44,538 nt of DNA from Candidatus Aenigmatarchaeota archaeon (lineage in GTDB: Archaea; Aenigmatarchaeota; Aenigmatarchaeia; QMZP01), in contig JACQII010000015.1 of NCBI GenBank assembly GCA_016198585.1, forward strand, positions 1 through 44,538, given 5' to 3'. The first letter of the stretch is position 1. Every line of letters starts with the position of its first letter. The translations under genes were made by a program, and so were the position numbers. A model generated the notes under the pieces. The model searched no databases. It saw nothing but the letters and a program-made list of their open reading frames with translations, and was not told the origin of the DNA. This document shows positions 7,723 to 41,364 of this stretch, one piece after another.

Positions 7723-9117
7723 TCATCGGGGACGCGATCCTGCAGGCAGCGGCAGGCGGATGCGGCGCTCGAGGTAGTCGTGCAGGAACCGCGCAAGTGC
7801 CGGGTCGGCCGCCTTCTGCACGAGCGCAGGCCCGGTAAGCAGCGAGAACCCCTTGGGGAGGGCCTGCGCCACCACGGGCGCGACGCCGAGTTCCAGGAGG
7901 TGCGGCCGGCGCAGGACGTGCCGGAGCGCGTCAGCAGCGAGCGGGAACTGCCTCGGGATTTCGGCAGTCCAGCGGTCGCCCTCGACCCACAGGCGGGCCG
8001 TGCGGTACTTCTGGAGGAACTGGCCGGCGTGCTTCTTGACTGCCACGGGCGGCCCGACCACCTTGCGGACCGCGGGCAGGCTCCAGGTCTCCATCTCGAA
8101 CAGGAGCAGGCAGTCCCGGGGACTGGCGAACACTTCCTGGCCCATCACCAGGAACTCCTTCTCCCGCAGGATGTTCGCGAGCCTTGCGGCCGTCCGGCGC
8201 AGCTGCGGGTAGAGGACGTCGTCGATCTCCTTCGGCCGCGCGAACCGGACACCGAGCATCGCCGTTCCCCGGGTTGCCAGGCGGCGGCCCAGCCCTGCGT
8301 GGTCTGCCCGGAACGGCGGCGGGAAGAAGAACGACCGCCGCGGGGCTTTCAGGAACTGGCGGCAGAGGTCGCTGAACCGGACGAAGTTCACCAGGGAGAG
8401 GACGGCAGCCACGTTCCGCTTCGGGTCGACCGGATCGATCACCACCAGCGGCTGGCCGGGGAACGCTGCTTTGGCGTGGTTGGCAAGGTCGACGACCGTC
8501 CCGGGCTCCCACGCTGCTGCTGCGCGGAGCAGGGCGGTGAAGCTGCGATAGTTCACCATGAGCAGCTCGCAGAGGTAACCAGAGAAGCCGAGCGTGGCCG
8601 TATCGGAGCCGTAGAGGCCGTTGGCTTTCAGGAACTGCTTCAGGAGCCGGACCTGGGGCGCGAGAGTCGGTGGGAAGTGCTCGGCGAGATAGCGGTTGTG
8701 GAACGGCGTGCGGTCGACAGCCGACTTCAGGTGGGCGGGGTCGGCGATCTTGTAGGCCGGGACGATGTCGATGAGGAAACCCCGGTAGGACGCCCGCGTG
8801 TACGGATGCTCGGCGTAGGCGATAGTCCAGGAACCGCCGAGCCGGCGGGCGACGCCTGCGCCGAACGCCAGGCCCTTCTTCTCGAGGGTCTCCCGGGACG
8901 TTGACTCGGGGAAGAGGAGGAAGATGTCAAACTCCTTCTTGTCAGTCATCCAGGTGCCGCGAGTGTACGACCCGGCGACGGTGTAGTCCAGGCCACCAGT
9001 CACGGCCTCGACGGCCTGTACGACCTCGGCCAGGGTCTCCCGGATCTCCCGCTCCTCGCGCGGGGTGGGGGTGACCTTCTTGAGGACTGACGGGAGCAGC
9101 GCATCCAGGGCGGACAT
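7723..9117 (-). CDS. cca: CCA-adding tRNA nucleotidyltransferase, archaeal class I
   Basis: 464 residues, the normal size. It adds or repairs the 3' CCA of tRNA without a template. The catalytic head shows GSYTRGTW (49-56), the metal-binding pair Glu62/Asp64 in KEFDIF and the third carboxylate Asp116 in FLIDIVPAY. Later blocks (PQVRLLKQFLKANGLYGSD, FSGYLCELL, DPVDPKRNVAAVLS) are characteristic of the archaeal enzyme. ATG 9117 (MSALDALLP) is preferred over an upstream in-frame start at 9144 because CTATTTGAG at about 9141-9149 would be its TATA element. Confidence 0.95.
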   Translation of the reverse strand: MSALDALLPSVLKKVTPTPREEREIRETLAEVVQAVEAVTGGLDYTVAGSYTRGTWMTDKKEFDIFLLFPESTSRETLEKKGLAFGAGVARRLGGSWTIAYAEHPYTRASYRGFLIDIVPAYKIADPAHLKSAVDRTPFHNRYLAEHFPPTLAPQVRLLKQFLKANGLYGSDTATLGFSGYLCELLMVNYRSFTALLRAAAAWEPGTVVDLANHAKAAFPGQPLVVIDPVDPKRNVAAVLSLVNFVRFSDLCRQFLKAPRRSFFFPPPFRADHAGLGRRLATRGTAMLGVRFARPKEIDDVLYPQLRRTAARLANILREKEFLVMGQEVFASPRDCLLLFEMETWSLPAVRKVVGPPVAVKKHAGQFLQKYRTARLWVEGDRWTAEIPRQFPLAADALRHVLRRPHLLELGVAPVVAQALPKGFSLLTGPALVQKAADPALARFLHDYLERRIRLPLPAGSRPR

Positions 9118-9177
9118 GGTTATTATTACAGGGAGCCCGCTCAAATAGCCCAGCGCAGCCGGAAGGCCGTCACGAGA

Positions 9178-10530
9178 TCACGGGTTGCGAGCGTCAAGAC
9201 CGTCCTGCAGGTAGCGGCGGACCAGGGAGACCTTCTCCCGCGCCGCGTCCGTGTCCGGCTCGCCGCCGAGGACCGCGAAGCGGAAGGCTTCCGCAAGATC
9301 CTCTCCCTCGGAGATGGCGTTCTGTGCCTGACGTGCCTCCTGAAGGGCGTTCTGGACAAGCGGGTGTCCGGGAAGCTCGCTCAGATTGACATACCGGAGC
9401 TCCAGACTTCCAAGGGTCTCGACCCCCAGCCGGATCTCCTCATCGAGCCGGGAGATGTCATCCTGTATCGTCGCTCGTGTCGCGATCCGACGGCCTTCCT
9501 TGTCCGGATCAGAGAGCGGATCATCCGTCACCTCCAGCAAGTCGAGGTACTTCCCCCGCCAGTCCTGGGCAGACGCGACATTCTCCCGCGCATCCTGCAC
9601 CCGATGCTCGGCATCCTCGAGTATGGATGGGTAGCATTCCGTGAGCCAGGTTTCAAAGGGGGAGAGGCCCCGTGCGAACTCCGCCCGACCTTTCGCGTAC
9701 CTGGTGAGGTAATGAGCAGGATCAGCATTCAATGCGGCGAAACGTTCGACGATGCCGGACATACGATCGGGATCCTCCCCGTTGAGGATGTGGCCGAACT
9801 CATGAGCAACCACGCCAAGGGGGTCCTTTTCACGCGCGCCGGTCCAATAGATCACATCCCACCCGTCCGGAGGAGCCGGGGTCGCTCTCCTGAGATACTC
9901 GAGGATGCCCTGAACCGTTATCTCGCCTGCCGTCCAGCGTGCGTGGTAGGCTGCTGCGCGCCAGTAATCCCCTTCGGCTACCTCGGCCGGCTGGGTGGCA
10001 TCTACAACGTCGCACGTCAGTTTCCCGTAGTTCTGGAGCGCCCGCCCCAGATCGGGGACATTTGACTCAGTCATGCCGAAAAAAGGGTTGACGCGGGATC
10101 GCAGGTCAAAGAGACGCATAGCCCTGTCGGCGGCGAGCGCAGAGGCTTCGAGAGACTCGAGGGACGACGTTCCTATTCCCTCGAGGTGGGCAAGGATGGC
10201 GTCGTATTCTGCAAGTTCCTCCGGGGTGGGGTGGTATGACTCAACCTTCACGAGAACGGGCTCCAGCCTCTCGAAGGCCGCGGGCTGGATCGCGCGGTAG
10301 CGCGCGACGACGTCCTCCACGACACGTACGTCCTCGGGCGAAAACCCGACCAAGAGCATACCGCTGCCCGTGTCCTGCCGGACGCGCGCGAGCGCGTCTT
10401 CGTAGGTCTGGACCGCCTCGGGCGACGGACCGAGGTAGACGTGCCCGTCTCCGAGGTCGCGCGTCCCGTAGGTTTCCAGGGCAGGGCCGCATCCGAGGGC
10501 GGCGAGGGCGAGGATTGCTGGCTTCAACAT
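9178..10530 (-). CDS. Lipoprotein with HExxH zinc metallopeptidase motif
   Basis: 450 residues from the ATG at 10530. The leader MLKPAILALAALGC ends in a lipobox-like ALGC (Cys14), so the protein is probably secreted and lipid-anchored. A zinc motif HEFGH is at 243-247 in VVAHEFGHILNGEDPDRM, with several candidate third-ligand acidic residues downstream. The rest is charged and helical, with a long likely coiled-coil C-terminus (about 310-400). I cannot assign a peptidase family. A TATA box (10560-10568) and a palindrome overlapping the predicted start site mark it as likely regulated. Confidence 0.7.
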   Translation of the reverse strand: MLKPAILALAALGCGPALETYGTRDLGDGHVYLGPSPEAVQTYEDALARVRQDTGSGMLLVGFSPEDVRVVEDVVARYRAIQPAAFERLEPVLVKVESYHPTPEELAEYDAILAHLEGIGTSSLESLEASALAADRAMRLFDLRSRVNPFFGMTESNVPDLGRALQNYGKLTCDVVDATQPAEVAEGDYWRAAAYHARWTAGEITVQGILEYLRRATPAPPDGWDVIYWTGAREKDPLGVVAHEFGHILNGEDPDRMSGIVERFAALNADPAHYLTRYAKGRAEFARGLSPFETWLTECYPSILEDAEHRVQDARENVASAQDWRGKYLDLLEVTDDPLSDPDKEGRRIATRATIQDDISRLDEEIRLGVETLGSLELRYVNLSELPGHPLVQNALQEARQAQNAISEGEDLAEAFRFAVLGGEPDTDAAREKVSLVRRYLQDGLDARNP

Positions 10531-29984: not shown

Positions 29985-30731
29985 ATGAAAATCGGCAAGG
30001 TAGAGGCGTATATTGCCGGAAAAATCGCCCAGGGGAAAGGGGTGTTCATGGGCCTGATCGACCCGGACAAGCAGTCACCAGAGCGTGGCCTTGAACTGGC
30101 TAAGACCCTCGAAGACGGCGGAGCGGACCTGGTCATGCTTGGCGGCTCGATCGGCGTGCAGGGCCCAGTCCTGGAAGCGACGGCCAAGATGATCAAGGAG
30201 AACATCAAGATCCCCCTCCATGTCTTCCCCGGCAACGTGGGCAACGTGACCTACTACGCCGATTCCATCTACTTCATGTCGCTGCTGAACAGCAAGAACC
30301 CGTACTGGATCACGGGAGCCCAGACGTTGGGCGCGCCGGTGATCCGGCAGTCGCGGATCGAGCCGATCCCGACGGCCTACCTGGTCTTCGAGCCGGGCGA
30401 AACGGTCGGGAGGGTGGGCGAGGCCAACCTGCTGCCCCGGGACAAGCCCGACCTCGCCGTTGCCTACTCCCTGGCAGCGGAGTACATGGGCTTCCGCTTC
30501 GTGATCCTGGAGTCCGGATCAGGTGCGCCCGAGCCGGTCTCCCTGGACATTGTCCGCGCCATCCGCGCGACGACAGGCCTAACGATCGTCGTCGCCGGCG
30601 GCGTCAAGACCCCCGAACAAGCACGGGCCCTGGTCGAGGCCGGCGCCAACTGCATCCACATCGGCACCAAGGTCGAGTCGGGCGACGCCCTGCAGGTCCG
30701 GCAGTTCGCGAAAGCGATCCACCTCGAGTAA
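29985..30731 (+). CDS. Geranylgeranylglyceryl-phosphate synthase
   Basis: 248 residues. Joins geranylgeranyl diphosphate to sn-glycerol-1-phosphate, the first committed step of archaeal ether-lipid synthesis. TIM-barrel motifs: GLIDPDK (Mg/diphosphate), VFPGNVGN, YLVFEPG, LESGSGAPEPV and VVAGGVKTPEQA with NCIHIGTKVE, forming the phosphate site. Length and layout fit the large family shared by archaea and some bacteria. Downstream of the symmetric TATA and GGGGT before ATG. Confidence 0.95.
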   Translation: MKIGKVEAYIAGKIAQGKGVFMGLIDPDKQSPERGLELAKTLEDGGADLVMLGGSIGVQGPVLEATAKMIKENIKIPLHVFPGNVGNVTYYADSIYFMSLLNSKNPYWITGAQTLGAPVIRQSRIEPIPTAYLVFEPGETVGRVGEANLLPRDKPDLAVAYSLAAEYMGFRFVILESGSGAPEPVSLDIVRAIRATTGLTIVVAGGVKTPEQARALVEAGANCIHIGTKVESGDALQVRQFAKAIHLE

Positions 30732-30751: not shown

Positions 30752-32128
30752 TTACTGGCTGCTGGTGAGCGCCGTCGCAGGCACTTGGTCAAGCTGCCGG
30801 AAGTAGTCTGCTGCCTTGTAGATCAGCTCAGTGGACAGCCGCTCGGCTGCTTCCTCGGGCGTGGTTCCCCTCTCCAGCAACGAAAGCACGGCGACCCCGC
30901 GCCGGGCTTCCACCAACCGGGCCGAGAGCGTGTAGCCGCGGTCGGCATTCACTTCCCCGAGCACGAAGAAGTCGAGCCCCTGCGCAGCGAAATCAGTCAC
31001 TGCCGCAGGATCGAAGACCGCATCCTCATTCAGCTCCCGCTCGGTGAGGAGCTTGCCCACCTGCGGACGTTCGACGACGTCGAACCAGCCGTTGTTCGTG
31101 AGATAGCCGGTCACTAGGCCGGCCACATACTCGCCTTTCTGCCCGGTGAAGGGCATGGTACCCATCCGGAGCGGCCGCGCTTTCTCAAGCTCGATGCCGA
31201 CCGTCTGCTGGCCGGCGGAAAGCGTGATGGACCCTCGCTCAGGGTAGTAGCCGTCAGCGGTCGCCGTGAACGGGAGGGTCGTGCCCCGCACAGGAGCGGT
31301 GAACGCCTTGTCCCAGTAGAGATGACCGTCTTCATCGGCATAGGCGCCGAAGGGGACATCGGTATCGCCGAGAAACACGCCCTGTAGGCGCGGGCTTTGC
31401 ATCTCCACGTTGACCTGCTCTGGTGTCACGTCTACGGAGAGCGTTCCCGGCATCGGCTTGGGGATCCACGCGAGATTGAAGACCACGGGCTTCTGGGTGG
31501 GGACCATGACCTCCCTGGTCTCGGTCTGGTAGCCTGGTCGGCTGGCGCTGAGGAGGTAGGGGGTGGGAAGATTCTCGACGCCGTACTCGTGATGCTCAAC
31601 CCTCTTCACCGTATAGAAGAGGGCGTCGCGGATGAACAATCTATCGTTGGGCATGATGTCGCGCTCCACCCCGCCGCCGTCGCCAACAGCACGCAAGGGG
31701 AAAGTGGTGTTGTTTGCGAGGTCCCAGAGGACCGGGGGACCGCGGGGTTCGTTCCATTCCAGCCGGGCTTCATGGTCGCCATCATTCCTCCCGTCACGGT
31801 GAACAAAGTGTGGATCCCATTCGTCGCGCCGTTCCAGGACGGTCTCAGACCCGTACACGTGCCGGCGCTCCATGGGCACCTGCAAACCGGCAGGGACGAG
31901 ACCGTCGTGCCACCGGCGGCCTTCCCCTTCCACGAGAATATGGGTTCCCTCCCGGGCTGCAATGGGCAAGGGAACCATGAGCGGATCAGCGTCGCTATAC
32001 GTCAGGTACACCGGCGAGCGGACCGTATCGGTTGTGGTCCGGTAACGGCTCCCTGGGCTTGAACACGCGGGCAGGAGGGTAAGCGCCCCGAGGACCCCCG
32101 CCGCCAGGTAGTGGTTCAGGGGCTTCAT
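30752..32128 (-). CDS. Lipoprotein with PEGA-like and CsgG-like domains
   Basis: 458 residues from ATG 32128. Leader ends LTLLPACSS, a lipobox. The middle (about 230-330: PGTLSVDVTP ... GTTLPFTATADGYYPERGSITL) is PEGA-like. Residues about 335-455 resemble the CsgG/lipoprotein-assembly fold: GEYVAGLVTGYLTNNGWFDVVERPQVGKLL, then LDFFVLGEVNADRGYTLSARLVEARRG. In bacteria such domains sit in outer-membrane export or penicillin-binding-protein activation; here it is a surface lipoprotein of unknown role. TATA CTTTATAAG at about 32149-32157. The longer frame to 32161 is rejected. Confidence 0.72.
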   Translation of the reverse strand: MKPLNHYLAAGVLGALTLLPACSSPGSRYRTTTDTVRSPVYLTYSDADPLMVPLPIAAREGTHILVEGEGRRWHDGLVPAGLQVPMERRHVYGSETVLERRDEWDPHFVHRDGRNDGDHEARLEWNEPRGPPVLWDLANNTTFPLRAVGDGGGVERDIMPNDRLFIRDALFYTVKRVEHHEYGVENLPTPYLLSASRPGYQTETREVMVPTQKPVVFNLAWIPKPMPGTLSVDVTPEQVNVEMQSPRLQGVFLGDTDVPFGAYADEDGHLYWDKAFTAPVRGTTLPFTATADGYYPERGSITLSAGQQTVGIELEKARPLRMGTMPFTGQKGEYVAGLVTGYLTNNGWFDVVERPQVGKLLTERELNEDAVFDPAAVTDFAAQGLDFFVLGEVNADRGYTLSARLVEARRGVAVLSLLERGTTPEEAAERLSTELIYKAADYFRQLDQVPATALTSSQ

Positions 32129-32196
32129 GTCCCTGCTATGGAGCGATGCCTTATAAAGCATGGTCCTGATGCGCGTTCTGGGTGACGGTTCTTGCG

Positions 32197-33994: not shown

Positions 33995-34147
33995 ATGGAG
34001 AAGTCGATCACGTTGCTCATTTTCATCGTCGTCGCCCTCGTCGGGGCCTTCATCGTGATCATGATGATCAGCGCGATTACCGGGGACTCCCAGAACCTCT
34101 TCACGCAAACCGTGGACAAGTTCAGGGACCTGTTGAATCTCAAGTGA
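33995..34147 (+). CDS. 50-residue pilin-like membrane peptide
   Basis: MEKSITLLIFIVVAL... : two charged residues, a hydrophobic helix (about 5-28) and a 20-residue amphipathic tail ending FRDLLNLK. It resembles a minimal pilin helix but has no recognisable processing site. First gene of the surface-protein run, 6 bases before the 726-residue protein. Strong promoter and AGGAG before the ATG. Function unknown. Confidence 0.7.
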   Translation: MEKSITLLIFIVVALVGAFIVIMMISAITGDSQNLFTQTVDKFRDLLNLK

Positions 34148-34153
34148 GGGCAC

Positions 34154-36334
34154 ATGGCCGACGCATTGACCTTCGAGATGATATTTGCCGTGGTGGCGAT
34201 TGTGGGAGCGCTCTTCCTCTTCCTGTTTGTGAGCGGCCAGTTCGGGACCTTCGCTGCCCTCAAGGATTGCCCGCCGGAGGGGGAGCCTATTCCTGTGTAT
34301 ATGTTCTGGTGCCGGGGTGGATCAGCTTCCTACGACCGGATAGCGGCGGACTCGATGAAGGCGCTGGCCTGCGCAGTCAATGCAGCGGCACAGGGAGCAT
34401 GCACCGACGAGGCCTGCCCGGGAGCGTCGAAGCCGACCGTCACGGCGAGCTTCGTGGCGGCCGCGGAGCCGGAGCGGCGATGCTACGGCGCGAGCTGCGT
34501 CACCTGCACCGGCGGCTTCACCGTGGAGGACTTCGAGCTTCCCCAGGACGTCAGCAAGATCGACACCTGGATCCCCTGGTTCGGCATGCCCCAATCCCTG
34601 GTCTACTGGCAGCAGTTCCCGCTGGACGAGGACACCTGGTCCGAAGAACACGATTTCTCTTTCTACACGGTGGTCAGCGCGTTCGTGCTGATTGGGCCCA
34701 CGAAAGGGATCAAGATCCTGCAAAAACTGGCCGCCGTCAAGAAGGTCGAAGGTGTCAGCAGCGCCGCTATCGCGGCCGCGAAGACGACCACCATCATCAA
34801 GGAGGGCATCTCTGCTACCTTGGCGAACACGCTCACGAAGAGGGGCCTGACGTTCACCGCGTTGCGCGCGGCTGCTGGCGGAGCCGCAACCTTCACCTAC
34901 GAGGCGTGGGAGACGCTCCGGGCCCAGGCGGTGGAGGACTTCCTCGCTGCCCACCCTGACCAGATCGTCCTGCTCAAGGCGTTGCAGGGGAAGGATCAGA
35001 CCATGTCCGTCGTGGATGAGCTCGCGGATAAGCCCGTGATCCTCCAATGGAGCCCGGAGTGGACCGATGACGAGCGGGCGCTCCATTTCGTGTCGCCCTG
35101 CAAGATCGACCGGATGGTCGTCGAATCCACGACGTTCGGCTGCCAGGAGTTCATCGCTGACACCACCTTAGGAACGGTGCACTGCAGCACGGATACGGAA
35201 GGAGCCTATGCCGAGCCACCGGAAGATGTCCCGACCTGCCAGGAGATCGGCGGCCCGATCGATCTCCCGTCCATCAAGAACCACCTCGGCCCGCGCCCTC
35301 CCCGTTTTGATGGCGATCTCATATCTGAATCCCCCTTCAGACCGCTTCTGGAACCCGCTTTCAACGCTATCAACGGTGGAGATCTGCCCAACTTCCCGCC
35401 ACAGAAGCGCTTCTTTGCTGACGGGTTCTTCGTGGTTCCCATCAACGTCGCGCCCTGCAGCAAAGGGACGTCGTGCTCCCGCCTTGACCTGCTCTATGCG
35501 GATGCTGAGATCTCGGTGGCCAAGGGCTCGGAGAACCGCCTCACCTCCTCGGCGAAGCCCCGCGACTATGTCCTCAGCCAGGAGACCTACACCAATGCAC
35601 AGGGACAGCCGACGACCGAAGCGGTCCAGGTAGGCTTCTCCCAGACCGATCAGACCATTTTTATCCAGGGCCCGACCGTTTTCTCCTCCGATCAAGAGAT
35701 CACCTACACGTCAGATGACGGGACCTATGCGCTCCGTTTTTTCTCTGCTGTTGACGATGACGAGTGGGGCGTTGTTGCCACCCTTCCGCAGGACGGGTCG
35801 CTCTCGACGGCGACGGGTGTCCACTTCGTTTGGCAAACGCAGGAAACCGACGATCTCGTGACGCGGGGCCTGAACCTGGGCTACGCGAGCCCAGGGGATG
35901 TGGACATCGGCGTCATCCTGCGCGATGACGGCGGGGCCGAGGGGATCGTCTCGTCGTTCCAGGCATCCGACCGGATCACCATCCAGAAGTTCCCTGACAT
36001 TCCCGGGACTGTTGCCACATACGAGGACAAAGATCTTGACGGCACCATTGACGTCCGGGGATTCGCAACCTTCAGCCTGACGGGATCGACGCCTGCCTGC
36101 CTGAGCGGCGGTGTGGTCGTGAAGGACTTTGTGCCCGCGGAAGACTACGATCCCAACTATTGCGTCCGGGAGACGAGCACGCTGGCGAAGATCGGCGAGG
36201 TCGCGGGATGGGCCGGTTTTGTGGGGAGCATCTTCGTAGGCGGCTGGCCGGGAGTCCTGCTCGGCCTCACCGGACTCTCGGGTGAAGCGTATGCGGGCCA
36301 CCAGCAGGACTGGCCGAACGGGGGCGTCGGCTAG
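34154..36334 (+). CDS. Large cysteine-rich anchored surface protein
   Basis: 726 residues. N-terminal helix (about 6-27), then a large exported part. Cysteines are paired (RRCYGASCVTCTGG near 110-123; PCSKGTSCS near 430). A mid-protein hydrophobic stretch (about 173-190) and an Ala/Thr-rich helical region (about 195-260) precede a beta-rich second half with DGTYALRFF and DKDLDGTIDVRG (a calcium-like loop). A hydrophobic segment near residues 685-710 could be a second anchor. No family recognised. It follows the 50-residue peptide by 6 bases. Confidence 0.75.
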   Translation: MADALTFEMIFAVVAIVGALFLFLFVSGQFGTFAALKDCPPEGEPIPVYMFWCRGGSASYDRIAADSMKALACAVNAAAQGACTDEACPGASKPTVTASFVAAAEPERRCYGASCVTCTGGFTVEDFELPQDVSKIDTWIPWFGMPQSLVYWQQFPLDEDTWSEEHDFSFYTVVSAFVLIGPTKGIKILQKLAAVKKVEGVSSAAIAAAKTTTIIKEGISATLANTLTKRGLTFTALRAAAGGAATFTYEAWETLRAQAVEDFLAAHPDQIVLLKALQGKDQTMSVVDELADKPVILQWSPEWTDDERALHFVSPCKIDRMVVESTTFGCQEFIADTTLGTVHCSTDTEGAYAEPPEDVPTCQEIGGPIDLPSIKNHLGPRPPRFDGDLISESPFRPLLEPAFNAINGGDLPNFPPQKRFFADGFFVVPINVAPCSKGTSCSRLDLLYADAEISVAKGSENRLTSSAKPRDYVLSQETYTNAQGQPTTEAVQVGFSQTDQTIFIQGPTVFSSDQEITYTSDDGTYALRFFSAVDDDEWGVVATLPQDGSLSTATGVHFVWQTQETDDLVTRGLNLGYASPGDVDIGVILRDDGGAEGIVSSFQASDRITIQKFPDIPGTVATYEDKDLDGTIDVRGFATFSLTGSTPACLSGGVVVKDFVPAEDYDPNYCVRETSTLAKIGEVAGWAGFVGSIFVGGWPGVLLGLTGLSGEAYAGHQQDWPNGGVG

Positions 36335-36383
36335 CATCCGAGCCGCACGCCAGCGAAGGCTTTTATGCGGCGGGCGCCAATAG

Positions 36384-36494
36384 ATGTTCGTGGCCCGCGG
36401 ATTCCTCGACATGAGCTACCTGATGATGATCATCGTTGCCATCGTGACGGGCGCGATCATTCTCGCCTTCGCGGCATCGAAGTGGGGCATATGA
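36384..36494 (+). CDS. 36-residue membrane micro-protein
   Basis: Not detectable by usual length limits. MFVARGFLDMSYLMMIIVAIVTGAIILAFAASKWGI is one transmembrane helix with a basic N-side, split here as MFVARGFLDMSY, a helix of about 18 residues, and ASKWGI. CTTTTATG at 36360-36367 is 20-25 bases upstream, which would put the RNA start at or just past ATG 36384, so ATG 36411 (27 residues) is an alternative start. Its TGA overlaps the next ATG (ATGA), showing coupling to the 40-residue protein. Function unknown. Confidence 0.55.
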   Translation: MFVARGFLDMSYLMMIIVAIVTGAIILAFAASKWGI

Positions 36495-36613
36495 AAGGGA
36501 TGACGCCCGAGTTCATCATGCTCGCCGTGGGGGTCATCCTTGCCGTTCTCTTCGCCTACTTCCTCGTGGCTGGCGTCGGTTGGACCACGAGCCTGTTCGA
36601 TTTCCTCGGCTGA
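36491..36613 (+). CDS. 40-residue membrane micro-protein
   Basis: MKGMTPEFIMLAVGV then a hydrophobic helix (about 8-30) and the tail WTTSLFDFLG. Starts inside the stop of the 36-residue protein (ATGA). The MKG-xxPEF N-terminus resembles the basic-then-acidic start of pilin-like helices elsewhere in this operon. A longer frame from 36365 is a mis-start through the partner gene. Function unknown; probably a small subunit of the same membrane complex. Confidence 0.6.
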   Translation: MKGMTPEFIMLAVGVILAVLFAYFLVAGVGWTTSLFDFLG

Positions 36614-36732
36614 CGACCGCCGACCTGGACTTTGGCACCCCTCGGCTTCCCGAACCAGGGGCGGCACGACACTTTCCAGGCACAGGCGCGCCCGCAAACG
36701 TTTATGTTCCCGCCTCCGCATAAGTATGTTAT

Positions 36733-37335
36733 ATGGCCATGAACATTCCTCCACTTGTCATTATTACCATCCTGTCGCTCGTCCTGGCCGCGATGCTCAT
36801 CTTCGTCTTCATCAAGGTCTACCCGACGATCTTCTACCCTTCCTGCTACCGCAACACGATCAACAGCCTGGACGCCATCCCGGGAACGCTCACCCTTGGT
36901 CTCGACCGTTGCCTCGGGGACGAGTCGTTCACGCTCGAACTTCCCCTTGCGAGCAGCTGCGTGGAGAAGGTCGAATTCACGGATTATGGCGGCTGCAGGA
37001 GGATCTGCGCCAGCCTCACCGGGCAACAAGCCGACCTCCGGGAGGGATGCCTCGATGCGTGCGCGGAATGCGAGTATGAGAAGGGCTGCATCGTCGTCGT
37101 GCCGCAAGTCCCTTCGTGGTTCGATGACTGGAAGCTCTGGGAGACGTTCCAGAAGAAGATGAGCCCCGTCTCGGTCCTGACGACCGGCGACTACACCCTC
37201 GACCATGAGGTCTTCACGCCTGAATCGGCCGAGAAGGGCCTGGCCTGCCTCACCTTCACGCTCGAGAAGGCGGAGAAGTACTACGCCATCGATTCCTCTC
37301 CCGGAGCGTGCGAGGAGGAAGTCACATGCGCCTGA
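36733..37335 (+). CDS. Membrane-anchored cysteine-rich protein, 200 residues
   Basis: N-terminal helix (about 6-28) then an exported domain with twelve cysteines: SCYR near 36, DRCLG, SSCVEK, GGCRRICAS, GCLDACAECEYEKGC, ACLTF, and ACEEEVTC at the end. The dense CxxxC/CxxC cluster at about 95-115 could form disulphides. No family recognised. TTTATG at 36701-36706 is about 30 bases upstream. Its stop overlaps the next gene's start by 10 bases. Confidence 0.72.
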   Translation: MAMNIPPLVIITILSLVLAAMLIFVFIKVYPTIFYPSCYRNTINSLDAIPGTLTLGLDRCLGDESFTLELPLASSCVEKVEFTDYGGCRRICASLTGQQADLREGCLDACAECEYEKGCIVVVPQVPSWFDDWKLWETFQKKMSPVSVLTTGDYTLDHEVFTPESAEKGLACLTFTLEKAEKYYAIDSSPGACEEEVTCA

Positions 37336-37817
37336 AAGGGCTCGAAGAGGCGCCATTGCTCGTGCTTTCGATGGTCCTGGCCCTGCTTGCCTTGGTGGTG
37401 GTCATCCAGACCGCCGACGCGTTCAGCCACCCGGACGCCAAGGCGCTCCAGCACGCTGTCGTGGTTGCGTCGTTCATCCAGACCCTGAGCCTGTCGGACA
37501 GCGGCCAGGGGACGGTGGAGTTCGGCGACCCGTTCGATGTCAGCGTCGTCTACTATGACGACAGCCTCATCGGCGGCGGAGTCGTCATGGAAACCAGCAA
37601 TGGCCCTGAGGACGTGGACGCGAACGTCGATGGCGAAAGCGGGCACTACGTGATGGTCACCGCGAACCGTGACGGAGCAGTACCGAAAACCACGTTCATC
37701 CTGCTGTACCCCCAGGAGCGCGACGACGGCCTCCTGGTGACGTTCACGGACGTGACGCGCGCCTGCGTCTCCAAGTCGCTCACCGATCCGGTGGCAAAGG
37801 TGGTCCCATGCGCGTAG
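37326..37817 (+). CDS. Pilin-like anchored protein, 163 residues
   Basis: MRLKGLEEAPLLVLSMVLAL: basic tail, Gly, two acidic residues and then a long hydrophobic helix, close to the class III (pilin) signal layout. The exported domain (about 40-163) is beta-rich with SVVYYDDS and TTFILLYPQERDD and ends in a cysteine pair. GAGGAAG lies 4 bases before ATG 37326, which is preferred to a GTG at 37308. Overlaps both neighbours. Function unknown. Confidence 0.7.
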   Translation: MRLKGLEEAPLLVLSMVLALLALVVVIQTADAFSHPDAKALQHAVVVASFIQTLSLSDSGQGTVEFGDPFDVSVVYYDDSLIGGGVVMETSNGPEDVDANVDGESGHYVMVTANRDGAVPKTTFILLYPQERDDGLLVTFTDVTRACVSKSLTDPVAKVVPCA

Positions 37818-38215
37818 GAGACATCCCCTCGTCAGCGGCTGCCGGCGTCGTCCTGGTCTTCTTCATCGGTACGGTCACGATCTTCAGCGCTGCGCACCTC
37901 TATCAGGTGACGTCAGAGCTGAAGGATGCGGACGAGCGCATCGGCGCGATCGACATGGCCCACCTGGTCCGCTGGTGTCTGGGCGACGCCCCAGACGTGC
38001 AATTCCTCGAGTCCCAGAAGGGGAAGGAGTTCTCCGCTCTCGAGGGCCTGCCCGAGGCCTGCAAGCGGGATGTCCACGTGCGGATACGCGAGGTCGCGGG
38101 CGACCGCGCCTGGGAGTTCGGGGAACAGCAGGACGTGTCATACACCCTTTTTGTCCCGTTGAGCGACGGGCAAGAGGTGATCATGGGGGATCTCTATGTC
38201 TCGATCGACACCTGA
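37808..38215 (+). CDS. Membrane-anchored protein, 135 residues
   Basis: N-terminal hydrophobic helix (about 10-31) after MRVGDIPSSAA, then an exported domain: LKDADERIGAIDMAHLV helix, RWCLGDAPDVQF, and a beta end (YTLFVPLSDGQEVIMGDLYVSI). Two cysteines. It overlaps the upstream stop by 10 bases and the next start by 20, so translation is coupled. No family recognised. Confidence 0.68.
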   Translation: MRVGDIPSSAAAGVVLVFFIGTVTIFSAAHLYQVTSELKDADERIGAIDMAHLVRWCLGDAPDVQFLESQKGKEFSALEGLPEACKRDVHVRIREVAGDRAWEFGEQQDVSYTLFVPLSDGQEVIMGDLYVSIDT

Positions 38216-38615
38216 GCCGCGCCGGCGGGGGAGCATCGACCTGGCAACCTTCGTGATCATTGCAGCGATTGTCATGGGCAGCCTGTTCGTCCTCGAACGG
38301 ATCACGATCATCGACGCGGTCATCGGCATCCGGACCAACGTCCAGCTGGCCGTCGCCCTGAACAGCGAGGGAACCAAGGTGAACACGCTCACGATCACCG
38401 ATGTCGGCCAGGGCAGGTATGGCGAGCTTCTCGCGCAGGGCCAGGCCGATCCTGCCCTGGACGACCTCCTCGATGAGCTCGGACTCGCGCTGGTCGTCCG
38501 GGATGGGGAGCACACGATCTTTTCCCGCGGTGAGGTCCGGGAGAAGGAAGGCCGATTCGTGGACATCGCCCTTCCCGGCCTGCGGAAAGGCGTGTTGGGG
38601 GTTGATGCAGAATGA
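38196..38615 (+). CDS. Membrane-anchored protein, 139 residues
   Basis: A strongly basic N-tail (MSRSTPEPRRRGSID) leads into a hydrophobic helix (about 16-34), then an exported alpha/beta domain of about 100 residues with VNTLTITDVGQGRYGELL, DDLLDELGLALVV and EGRFVDIALPG. No cysteine. Basic inside and domain outside. Starts 20 bases before the previous stop and ends overlapping the next ATG by 4. Function unknown. Confidence 0.68.
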   Translation: MSRSTPEPRRRGSIDLATFVIIAAIVMGSLFVLERITIIDAVIGIRTNVQLAVALNSEGTKVNTLTITDVGQGRYGELLAQGQADPALDDLLDELGLALVVRDGEHTIFSRGEVREKEGRFVDIALPGLRKGVLGVDAE

Positions 38616-39757
38616 AGGGCGCTTCGAGTCACATGTACACCGCAATGGTCCTGGTGATCATGCTCGTGATCGGAGTCGCGGTGATGTCCTTCCTTCCCGC
38701 ACTCAACGAGCGGAACAGGATCCTGGAATTCACGCGGGACGGGTATGTCCTGCGCAACGCCGTGGACGGCGCGAAGATCTATGCTGAAGCTGCGCTGGTC
38801 TACTCCTACGAGCAGGGATGCTACGACGTCATGCGGCAGGGCGGGTACGCGGCGATTCCTGGTAACCAGCAGTACGCGACAGACACCGGAACCGTCGCGC
38901 TCTGGTACGACAGCGGGGGCGTGGGTCCGAGCCCGTCCGCTGCTCTCGCCAACCTTGAGGCGGCGACGGCGACGAACCTGAACCTCTACACGATCGCGCC
39001 GTACACGTTCCTGAAGACGTACGAAGTCGCCTTTCCCCCATATACGGTGACGCTCACCCCCCTCGCGGACCGCATGCGGCTGCAGGCCAGCTCAGGCGAG
39101 CTGATCGCCGGCGTGCGTGAGACGGAGACCGAGAAGCTAGCCATCCAGGAAAATCCGTCAATGGAGCGCGAGGACGAGGCCTGCATCGAGATCTTCACCC
39201 TCCACCGGGAGCTGGGGACCTTCCTTGGGGAGGCTTTCCATGCCGCGATCATCGCAGAGCTTGACCACTGGCCTCCCCAGGGAGAAGCGGAGATCCAGGG
39301 AACTGACCTTTCCAGCCTGGACAGCACGGCGATGGGCAATGCGGCCATGCAGGAAAAGAAGGAGACCGACCTCGCTGGCGCCCAGGAAGCTATCCGGCTT
39401 GCGCTTGAGGAGGCGGTGACCAGCCTTCCCCTGGCCGCTGCCGACGGGTTCGCTGCTGAATTGGGGGGGCACACGATCGAGGTGGCCGTGACACCGTCCT
39501 GCGACGCCCTGCTGACGGCTGCCTCGGGACCGATCCAGGCGAACTGCACCTTCACCTATGCGGCGACGATCGCCGCGACGGTCATCGTCACCGGCGACCA
39601 GGCGTTCCTGGTGCAGGCCGGGAACGATGTCGTGCTTTCCCCGGTCGCGCTGCGGTTCGCGGTCCGCGACACCTTCGACACGGCCATCACCGCCGGCGAC
39701 CTCTTCGACCCAGGACAGCTCGACCAGATCGGCCCGCTGCTGGAGGAGGGAGGATGA
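38612..39757 (+). CDS. Pseudopilin-like anchored protein, 381 residues
   Basis: MKGASSHMYTAMVLVIMLVIGVAVMSFLPALNERNRI: a short N-tail, a hydrophobic helix and then a polar extension, as in large minor pilins or pseudopilins. The rest is helical in the first half (LRNAVDGAKIYAEAALVYSYEQGCYDVM) and mixed afterwards, with a paired C-terminal domain (CDALLTAASG ... CTFTYAATIAATVIVTG). Overlaps both neighbours by ATGA. No family assigned. Confidence 0.7.
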   Translation: MKGASSHMYTAMVLVIMLVIGVAVMSFLPALNERNRILEFTRDGYVLRNAVDGAKIYAEAALVYSYEQGCYDVMRQGGYAAIPGNQQYATDTGTVALWYDSGGVGPSPSAALANLEAATATNLNLYTIAPYTFLKTYEVAFPPYTVTLTPLADRMRLQASSGELIAGVRETETEKLAIQENPSMEREDEACIEIFTLHRELGTFLGEAFHAAIIAELDHWPPQGEAEIQGTDLSSLDSTAMGNAAMQEKKETDLAGAQEAIRLALEEAVTSLPLAAADGFAAELGGHTIEVAVTPSCDALLTAASGPIQANCTFTYAATIAATVIVTGDQAFLVQAGNDVVLSPVALRFAVRDTFDTAITAGDLFDPGQLDQIGPLLEEGG

Positions 39758-40974
39758 ACGCTCTCGTCGGGATCGTCCTAGTCACCTTGTTTGCCATCGC
39801 CGGGACCGCCGCGGCTGCCAACGACATCGTCTTCGTTCCCAGCTTCTCCAGCACGCAAGCCCCGTACATCGGGGGGAGTCCCTTCTTCCCAGCCGAGGAA
39901 CAGGCGATGGAGTGGTATCGGTGGGTCGCGCCGCAGGCCGTGCGGTTCTTCATGGAAACGTCGCCGTTCCGGGAGTGTAAGGCCGACGCCGGCATACGCA
40001 TCGTGACGGAGAACTGTCCGTGCACTGACGCGTGGAACGTGTTGAACGAGGAGCCTTTCCAGGCGTGCGTGACCGCGTGTGCTACGGCCGCTACCGGCCG
40101 GACGTTCCCGCCAGAGGGTGCGGGAAGGGTGGTGGTCTTTACGGACCGCGGCAGCAGCGGGACGTCCTACGATTATCCCATCGTGACCTGTTCTGTCGGC
40201 TACGTCCCAAGTCCGGTCAACGCATATGCGGGAAAGGGCGGCATCCCGCTCGATGAGCAGCTCAACCAGGGTATGATCACCTGCCCGACCCATGAACTGG
40301 GCCACAGCCTCGGCGGGCTCTGCGATGAGTATGGACTCGCGTTCTGGAGTTGGGAGGACGGGATACAGGGTGCAAAGGTCCCGACAGTCAATGGTCCGTG
40401 CCCGAACCAGTTCCCCCCGACAGAGGCTATCCTCGGTCCCGCGCACGCTTGCAATGCAGTCGGGGTTCCTGAGTGCGCGACAGGTCCGTGTTGCGGCCGC
40501 GACCTCGACGGCAAGCCAGAGACCCGGGAGGTGGACATCATGGGAGGCTTCCTGACGAACGAGGCAGGGACTGCGTACATCGCCTCCTCCCCGGCCTTCG
40601 CGGAAGGCAACTACAAGATCTTCGGGTCGTTCATCCGGGAGTTCGGCTACTGCCAGGACGTCCAGTACGGGTGCGGGCTTGGAAACTGCGCCGGCTGCTC
40701 CAATCAGGGCCGGTGCGAGGCCCTCGAGAAGATCGATGCCATCCTCGAAGCATCGGAGAAGAAAGCGACCAGCCTCCGGGAGAAGGCAGACGTGCTCGGC
40801 AACCAGGAGGCGGCCAACCTGAGCGGCGCGGCAGAGGCAGAATCTGCCGCGGCCCGGGACCGGATCGGCGGCACCAACCCGGACGCGTGGACGCCCGAGG
40901 ACACCGCCTTGCTCCAGGCTGCGGCAGCGACGGTCAAGGTCGCCTGGCAGTCCCTTGCCATCCTCTTCGGCTGA
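39754..40974 (+). CDS. Secreted M64-like zinc metalloprotease
   Basis: 406 residues. Signal peptide to about 22 (AGTAAAAND). The zinc site is HELGHSLGGLCDEY at 180-193: HExxH (180-184) followed after six residues by the D-E-Y of family M64 (IgA peptidase type: HExGHxxxGLxDEY). A Met-turn candidate DIMGG follows at about 263. More than a dozen cysteines imply disulphides. The C-terminal ~90 residues are helical and Ala/Glu-rich. Last gene of the run and overlapped by ATGA, so it is likely made with the anchored proteins and may process or attack surface substrates. Confidence 0.85.
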   Translation: MNALVGIVLVTLFAIAGTAAAANDIVFVPSFSSTQAPYIGGSPFFPAEEQAMEWYRWVAPQAVRFFMETSPFRECKADAGIRIVTENCPCTDAWNVLNEEPFQACVTACATAATGRTFPPEGAGRVVVFTDRGSSGTSYDYPIVTCSVGYVPSPVNAYAGKGGIPLDEQLNQGMITCPTHELGHSLGGLCDEYGLAFWSWEDGIQGAKVPTVNGPCPNQFPPTEAILGPAHACNAVGVPECATGPCCGRDLDGKPETREVDIMGGFLTNEAGTAYIASSPAFAEGNYKIFGSFIREFGYCQDVQYGCGLGNCAGCSNQGRCEALEKIDAILEASEKKATSLREKADVLGNQEAANLSGAAEAESAAARDRIGGTNPDAWTPEDTALLQAAAATVKVAWQSLAILFG

Positions 40975-41094: not shown

Positions 41095-41364
41095 ATGACA
41101 AGCGACAACACCATTTACATCGGGAAGAAGCCCACCATGAGCTACGTGCTCGCCGCGATCACCCAGTTCTCCGGGGACGCGACCCAGGTCACCATACGCG
41201 CCCGGGGCAGGAACATCTCCCAGGCTGTCGACGTCGCCCAGGTCCTGAGCCACCGGTTCATCAAGGACCTCAAGCACTCGGTCCAGATAGGGACCGAGGA
41301 GCTCAAGGACAAGGACGACCGGCCGATGCGCGTCTCGACCATCGAGATCACGCTGACAAAATGA
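41095..41364 (+). CDS. albA: Alba chromatin protein
   Basis: 89 residues. The family core NTIYIGKKPTMSYVLAAITQF, VTIRARGRNISQAVDVAQVL and IEITL is intact; the Lys pair (KK, residues 11-12) contacts DNA and is a target of acetylation in other archaea. Alba binds DNA and RNA as a dimer. The leader is long, with a palindromic TATA region, which could allow self-regulation. Standard length, no insertion. Confidence 0.96.
   Translation: MTSDNTIYIGKKPTMSYVLAAITQFSGDATQVTIRARGRNISQAVDVAQVLSHRFIKDLKHSVQIGTEELKDKDDRPMRVSTIEITLTK

Follow-up and report, generated by a model that had tools for sequence, protein, structure and literature searches.

The results of this analysis suggest that ten plus-strand genes (g1 to g10, positions 33995 to 40974) in a stretch of DNA from Candidatus Aenigmatarchaeota, a DPANN archaeon, encode the set of extracellular subunits for a type IV filament machine of DPANN and, in addition, one effector, and that the enzymes associated with this machine are presented to partner cells. 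The stretch, referred to below as the window, is 44,538 nucleotides long and is one contig (JACQII010000015.1, assembly GCA_016198585.1) of a 0.94-Mb genome that is 76% complete. We hold this interpretation as a whole with moderate confidence: the machine itself is well supported, and the role of the enzymes is one that we infer. A sequence-only reading of the window had proposed a single membrane-bound extracellular system of pilin-like proteins that included a protease of the M64 type, encoded by g10. The pilin-like system is borne out by a gene order kept in relatives, by an enrichment of leader motifs among homologues, and by motor genes in the same operon of relatives; the M64 protease falls outside the conserved machine.

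The ten open reading frames are taken to be real genes, since the GC content at third codon positions is 0.79 to 0.92 in all of them, as expected at a genomic GC content of 63%. Their coordinates agreed with the ten lengths and the 4- to 20-bp overlaps from g5 to g10 that had been claimed (successively 10, 10, 20, 4, and 4 bp). In addition, g3 and g4 overlap by 4 bp, and gaps of 6, 49, and 119 bp separate g1 from g2, g2 from g3, and g4 from g5, respectively. In a profile search, the order g2-g5-g6-g7-g8-g9, usually followed by a gene for Alba, was kept in approximately 20 related loci or genomes, which is far beyond chance. Conservation of the order in other archaeal genomes had been named beforehand as a check, and genes scattered among relatives as the outcome that would speak against a single system; g2 and g5 to g9 were found together, which favors one system. 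The g2 gene is present in 34 of the 61 relatives compared at the family and order levels, and in five loci (L020, L022, L026, L027, and L031) it is inverted and yet adjacent to the rest of the block, which argues for a functional linkage rather than inertia. Relatives of g1, which are one-helix proteins of 46 to 59 amino acids (aa) beginning with MEF(S/T), stand beside g2 in about nine loci (L014, L016 to L019, L021, L029, L031, and L085), and proteins of this type also occur in two Nanohaloarchaeota (L113 and L124). In the complete Nanohaloarchaeota genome that contains L113, the same kind of gene run ends with the g9 family and Alba.

The sequence-only reading had seen no secretion ATPase, platform protein, or prepilin peptidase in the window. 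This holds for the window, but all three are found on other contigs of the same genome, and the operon of relatives carries the ATPase and the platform. In family f5 (L017, L019, and L029) and in L021 and L085, genes for a T2SSE ATPase of about 750 aa (PF00437, 4e-14) and a T2SSF-like platform of about 700 aa are located directly upstream of g2. The orthologue of this ATPase in the genome of the window (G000:C3:32363-34624, locus L054) is 61 to 67% identical over its full length to those of other members of the order, and the platform orthologue (G000:C6:5792-7909; T2SSF/TadC, PF00482, 3.7e-7) is 48 to 71% identical over its full length. The gene for an A24 prepilin peptidase (PF01478, 3.2e-9 / 3.1e-8) is at a distance of about 2 kb from that of the platform. 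Therefore, the operon in the window is best understood as the module that encodes the pilins of a type IV filament system. Across the phylum, 141 of 156 genomes have the ATPase and 148 the platform, and both were found in all 39 genomes that are at least 90% complete; the same ATPase also occurs in Nanohaloarchaeota and Woesearchaeota. By this ATPase, the genome of the window groups with Candidatus Aenigmatarchaeota.

Judged by its profile matches, the ATPase is a type IV filament motor of its own subtype. It matches the structure 2oap ("type II secretion system protein") and, as a feature shared with the Tad pilus (CpaF/TadA, TadB/C, Flp), the structures of CpaF (8rkd, 4e-21) and the TadA family (4e-32), whereas its score of 111.7 bits is far under the NCBIfam cutoff for TadA (373.15 bits). 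The very short one-helix proteins of the operon recall Flp in a comparison made by eye. An archaellum identity was rejected, the ATPase scoring 118.8 bits against an NCBI equivalog cutoff of 550 for FlaI. Further T2SSE genes with T2SSF genes nearby are present at G000:C10:35451, C10:161256, and C13:4121, so that this small genome has at least four loci of the type IV filament type; two of the three additional loci are beside typical archaeal pilins (RKGQSAMEYLMTYGW and MRKGITPIIATVI). Next to the ATPase gene, a coiled-coil protein with a weak FlaC-like match and a multihelix membrane protein with a weak match to DUF2070 are encoded (L054:8180-8932 and 8994-9563), an arrangement seen throughout the order. 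An intein of about 500 aa (Intein_splicing, 4e-30; LAGLIDADG, 5e-14; ending in ...AHN|T) interrupts the ATPase after an "IED" motif in L155 (G006:C42), L156 (G041:C4), and approximately 15 more genomes; the site is the same in many Aenigmatarchaeota, and the intein is absent from the genome of the window.

Each of g1 to g9 encodes a protein with a single N-terminal hydrophobic helix, as had been noted before, with the reservation that g2 may have more than one, because its C terminus contains a conserved glycine-rich hydrophobic segment. The earlier suggestion that several N-terminal tails resemble class III signals was supported among the homologues, of which 89 of 141 had a [KR]G class III-like motif ahead of the helix compared with 26 of 95 control proteins (p = 8e-8, computed on related sequences and therefore overstating their independence); in the window itself the motif is confined to g3, g4, g6, g8, and g9. 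The first gene (34 kb into the window, 33995 to 34147, plus strand as are all ten) encodes 50 aa starting with MEKSIT and has no leader; it might be a Flp-like subunit of the shaft or a small accessory protein. The largest subunit, g2 (34154 to 36334, 726 aa), has a large ectodomain with conserved Cys residues after its N-terminal helix and is a candidate tip adhesin. An alignment of 19 g2 sequences revealed the motif F-LPQ...GDP..YWQ.FP..EDTW besides the C-terminal segment; g2 had no match in Pfam or NCBIfam, and a profile search of the PDB gave chance-level matches only. The one-helix products of g3 (36384 to 36494, 36 aa, RG motif, weak relatives in L014 and L031) and g4 (36491 to 36613, 40 aa, a KG-type leader with the start MKG|MTPEF, a weak relative in L014) are, together with g1, candidate shaft subunits. 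The remaining five are pilin-like: g5 (36733 to 37335, 200 aa), whose place after g2 is kept in the approximately 20 loci; g6 (37326 to 37817, 163 aa, leader MRLKG|LEEAP); g7 (37808 to 38215, 135 aa); g8 (38196 to 38615, 139 aa, leader RRRG|SIDL); and g9 (38612 to 39757, 381 aa, leader MKG|ASS, motif YS.YQ..YD...GG).

The role of the enzymes is suggested by the subunits of relatives. In nine relatives, peptidoglycan hydrolase domains (M23, M15, VanY, lytic transglycosylase, and amidase) are fused to homologues of the pilin-like proteins g6 to g9. The g8 homologue is joined to Peptidase_M23 in L020, L021/L090, L022, L024, L026, L027, and L029/L094 (E values of 1e-15 to 1e-20) and to Peptidase_M15_4 in L016 (1e-15) and L019/L089 (1e-16), the hydrolase domain being C-terminal in these 9 genomes. 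The g8 profile, which was built in part from such sequences, spans the enzyme-bearing proteins from near the N terminus. Homologues of g9 carry VanY in L026 (2e-37) and, in a 1203-aa protein of L021 (13892-17503), amidase_3 (7e-44), an L,D-transpeptidase of the YkuD type (1e-18), and PKD. Homologues of g6 carry SLT in L024 (4e-19) and L027 (5e-7), in L019/L089 the C terminus of the g7 homologue matches SLT weakly (5e-4), and a Woesearchaeota operon encodes a 773-aa one-helix protein with M23 (4e-9). Both M23 motifs, HxxxD and HxH, are complete in L020, L022, L026, L027, and L029, while the second could not be located in L021 and is cut off by the contig end in L024. Other catalytic motifs are present as well: SxHxxGxAxD for M15, SHGCIR for YkuD, and HGG, SIHSN, and IEVGYLS for the amidase. 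Contamination was dismissed as the source of these domains, because in L089, L090, and L094 the archaeal ATPase, the platform, and g2 are encoded with them in the same operon and on the same contig. As separate observations, the L,D-transpeptidase of the L021 protein could in principle anchor a fiber covalently to foreign peptidoglycan, and among operon proteins aligned from other DPANN classes, a GH5 cellulase domain (6e-14) and an invasin D3 domain were found in one member each, which would be further variants with enzymes or adhesins.

The substrate of these hydrolases is unlikely to be found in their owners. Of 14 genomes, 10 had no match to a Mur ligase and the other 4 had a single match each, when four of these ligases are needed for the peptidoglycan pathway; several of these genomes are incomplete, and the evidence is thus strong rather than final. 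Since a Mur ligase set is lacking, the substrate is most likely foreign, that is, bacterial, and own peptidoglycan was rejected on the same count. Judging from the domains and the gene counts, the hydrolases of the relatives probably act on bacterial walls. Whether such walls belong to living partners is another matter, because an enzyme-bearing fiber might instead feed on wall fragments of dead bacteria. Many biosynthetic pathways are absent in DPANN, and peptidoglycan of dead cells has been proposed as a source of amino acids (PMC11537232); tethering enzymes to a fiber would, however, be a costly way of feeding when secreted ones would suffice, and we consider scavenging improbable.

The window lacks such fusions and has a protease gene behind g9 instead. 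As the sequence-only reading had stated, g10 (39754 to 40974, 406 aa) is a secreted protein with a protease motif: it has a signal peptide-like start and HELGHSLGGLCDEY at residues 180 to 193. Residues 180 to 191 (HELGHSLGGLCD, from H180 to D191) match HEXXHXXXGXXD exactly, and the Asp ligand has a neighboring Glu and there are cysteines further downstream, as in the secondary zinc site of M64 enzymes (PMC12402451). These features are shared with the M64 metallopeptidases ThomasA and BF3526, from which the putative zinc metallopeptidase g10 differs in having no significant PDB sequence match and in scoring below the Pfam cutoff. The idea that the protease belongs to the conserved machine had to be given up, as g10 was found in only 1 of 156 genomes of the phylum, where it occupies the interval between g9 and Alba that is otherwise 36 to 290 bp (638 bp in L025, in which g9 is split into two frames). 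The gene is a lineage-specific addition that is translationally coupled to g9, with an overlap of 4 bp typical of such coupling. Its service as an effector is supported indirectly by the wall hydrolases on the g6 to g9 homologues of relatives, and g10 may be the local occupant of the enzyme role.

The rarity of g10 is also what would be expected if the operon encoded a common adhesive pilus of type IV that attaches to surfaces or hosts, with M64 as a chance passenger behind g9 that is unrelated to the pilus. Consistent with this, many DPANN genomes have loci resembling those of type IV pili that were proposed to serve in contacts with hosts (Hamm et al., 2024; PMC11291902), and half of the order lacks enzyme fusions. 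However, the overlap with g9 is of a kind typical of coupled translation, and the position-equivalent subunits of nine relatives carry secreted hydrolases, with different families (M23 or M15) at the single position of g8; a chance passenger therefore seems unlikely. Alternatively, M64 could serve in the processing or maturation of g2 or of the S-layer of the species itself. The overlap makes it likely that g10 is cotranscribed with the subunit genes, and the large Cys-containing ectodomain of g2 might be a substrate, but g2 orthologues are present in more than half of the relatives and M64 in one genome, so that g2 does not need M64, and this function is very unlikely.

The soluble nature of g10 and its N-terminal signal would also fit a pseudopilus secretion machine that, like the piston of type II secretion, exports M64 and other soluble enzymes without displaying a long fiber. 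The succession of several small pseudopilin-like proteins and then a larger one presumably resembles gspG-K, a likeness that we take as a lead only and leave open. Against such a machine, these cells have no outer membrane for a secreted protein to pass, and a signal of the Sec type would be enough to export g10; furthermore, enzymes that are fused to the subunits, as in relatives, are more likely to be displayed than exported as cargo, and the system is present in near-complete genomes phylum-wide, almost always without M64. We consider it quite unlikely that secretion is its function.

The mechanism that we propose for a displayed type IV filament is as follows. The prepilin peptidase would trim the KG/RG leaders, and the ATPase and platform would push the one-helix proteins out of the membrane, with g1, g3, and g4 as shaft subunits, g5 to g9 as minor or tip subunits, and g2 as a large tip adhesin. 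The filament may then show envelope-cutting enzymes to a partner cell; for lineages that have wall hydrolases, this partner would be bacterial. In the species of the window, the secreted M64 might take over the enzyme role and act on a protein coat, for instance an S-layer or a surface glycoprotein. This suggests a contact machine with exchangeable envelope-cutting enzymes, a device to attach to and open neighboring cells. A more specific and more tentative proposal, to which we give somewhat less than an even chance, is that the filament tip with its exchangeable enzymes is a drill that cuts the envelope of the partner, peptidoglycan hydrolases being directed at bacteria and M64 at protein-coated partners. 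If so, the type of enzyme would predict the host.

Several observations weigh against the interpretation of the ten genes as a filament module with an effector. About half of the operons of the order, that of the window among them, have no wall hydrolase: a Pfam scan detected no hydrolase domain in g5 to g9 of the window, including the M23 or M15 domain of g8 orthologues, and the same was true of 40 operon proteins from relatives whose g8 is short. For g10, the M64 match (PF09471) is limited to the region around residues 63 to 194 and reached 16.7 bits against a gathering threshold of 26 (E = 0.0042), and the confinement of the gene to a single genome has been mentioned. A clear KG/RG leader is missing from g1, g2, g5, and g7, the window genes match no pilin family in Pfam or NCBIfam, and the AlphaFold models (each built with 6 to 8 relatives) were of low confidence, with predicted local distance difference test values of 32 for g2 and 37 for g9 and no evidence of a pilin-head fold. 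The motor genes are not adjacent to the operon in this genome, in which the three other type IV pilus-type loci could supply a motor. The incompleteness of the genome makes absences weak evidence.

The motor described here is known in outline. Hamm et al. (2024; PMC11291902) reported two loci resembling those of type IV pili in cluster-2 DPANN. One of them, Locus 2, encodes CpaF and TadC along with coiled-coil proteins; in the legend, filament proteins are given for Locus 1 only. Locus 2 occurs in the same taxa as the genes studied here (Nanohaloarchaeota, Woesearchaeota, Nanoarchaeota, and Aenigmarchaeota). Divergently transcribed coiled-coil genes stand beside the pair of long ATPase and platform in L113 and L114, from complete Nanohaloarchaeota genomes, the same adjacency as in Locus 2, and a coiled-coil neighbor is beside the ATPase in the genome of the window as well. 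It is probable, from a match in gene content rather than gene-by-gene identity to the NAR1 loci, that the operon of the window provides the subunits for Locus 2, to which we would add g1 to g9 as the missing subunits and the variants with enzymes. Previously, nanoarchaeal ATPases without identifiable pilins were noted in a census that does not mention DPANN by name and that, of these lineages, covers only Nanoarchaeota (Makarova, Koonin, and Albers, 2016; PMC4858521), and fast-evolving pilins were inferred in DPANN islands (Makarova, 2019; PMC6393860). The archaeal type IV pili catalogued in these studies share with the present system an ATPase of the VirB11/FlaI/TadA class, a TadC-like platform, short pilins with KG leaders, and a prepilin peptidase; in contrast, the ATPase here has a long N-terminal region, the platform is a single fused protein, and there are a Cys-containing subunit of 550 to 1480 aa and no recognizable known pilin family.

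Archaeal peptidoglycan hydrolases that kill bacteria (PMC12352652) likewise include M23 and related wall enzymes in organisms without peptidoglycan, whereas those found here are on pilin-like anchors inside a filament operon. That survey required a cell wall-binding domain, and could therefore have missed the present enzymes, and it does not mention pili. Murein transglycosylases were reported in Woesearchaeota with no link to a filament (PMC9723730), and an attachment organelle was observed in Nanobdellota, its proteins being unknown (PMC11420986). A subunit operon as the partner of the motor and subunits bearing enzymes were not found in the open-access literature searched. The question of how the DPANN, a large and mostly uncultured group, fasten themselves to other cells and draw from them is still open, and a concrete subunit operon is now linked to a DPANN motor that lacked named subunits, providing named targets for antibodies or assays. 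Furthermore, wall-cutting enzymes on the subunits of archaea with no recognizable peptidoglycan pathway make bacterial hosts of Aenigmatarchaeota a testable prediction.

The neighborhood of the operon is conserved to some extent. The gene for Alba, a chromatin- or RNA-binding protein, is downstream of the operon on the plus strand (41095 to 41364; NCBIfam, E = 1.6e-31) and travels with it across the order and in Nanohaloarchaeota (L113:20059-20373). Upstream of the operon, a lipid gene for PcrB/GGGP synthase is located at 29985 to 30731, and a similar gene, together with one resembling glycerol-1-phosphate dehydrogenase, is present in L018 and L031, which indicates a wider conserved neighborhood. 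Between the PcrB gene and g1, two genes for secreted proteins are located on the minus strand (30752 to 32161 and 32197 to about 33990), one with a lipobox and a CsgG-like match and the other with FG-GAP and carboxypeptidase regulatory-like matches.

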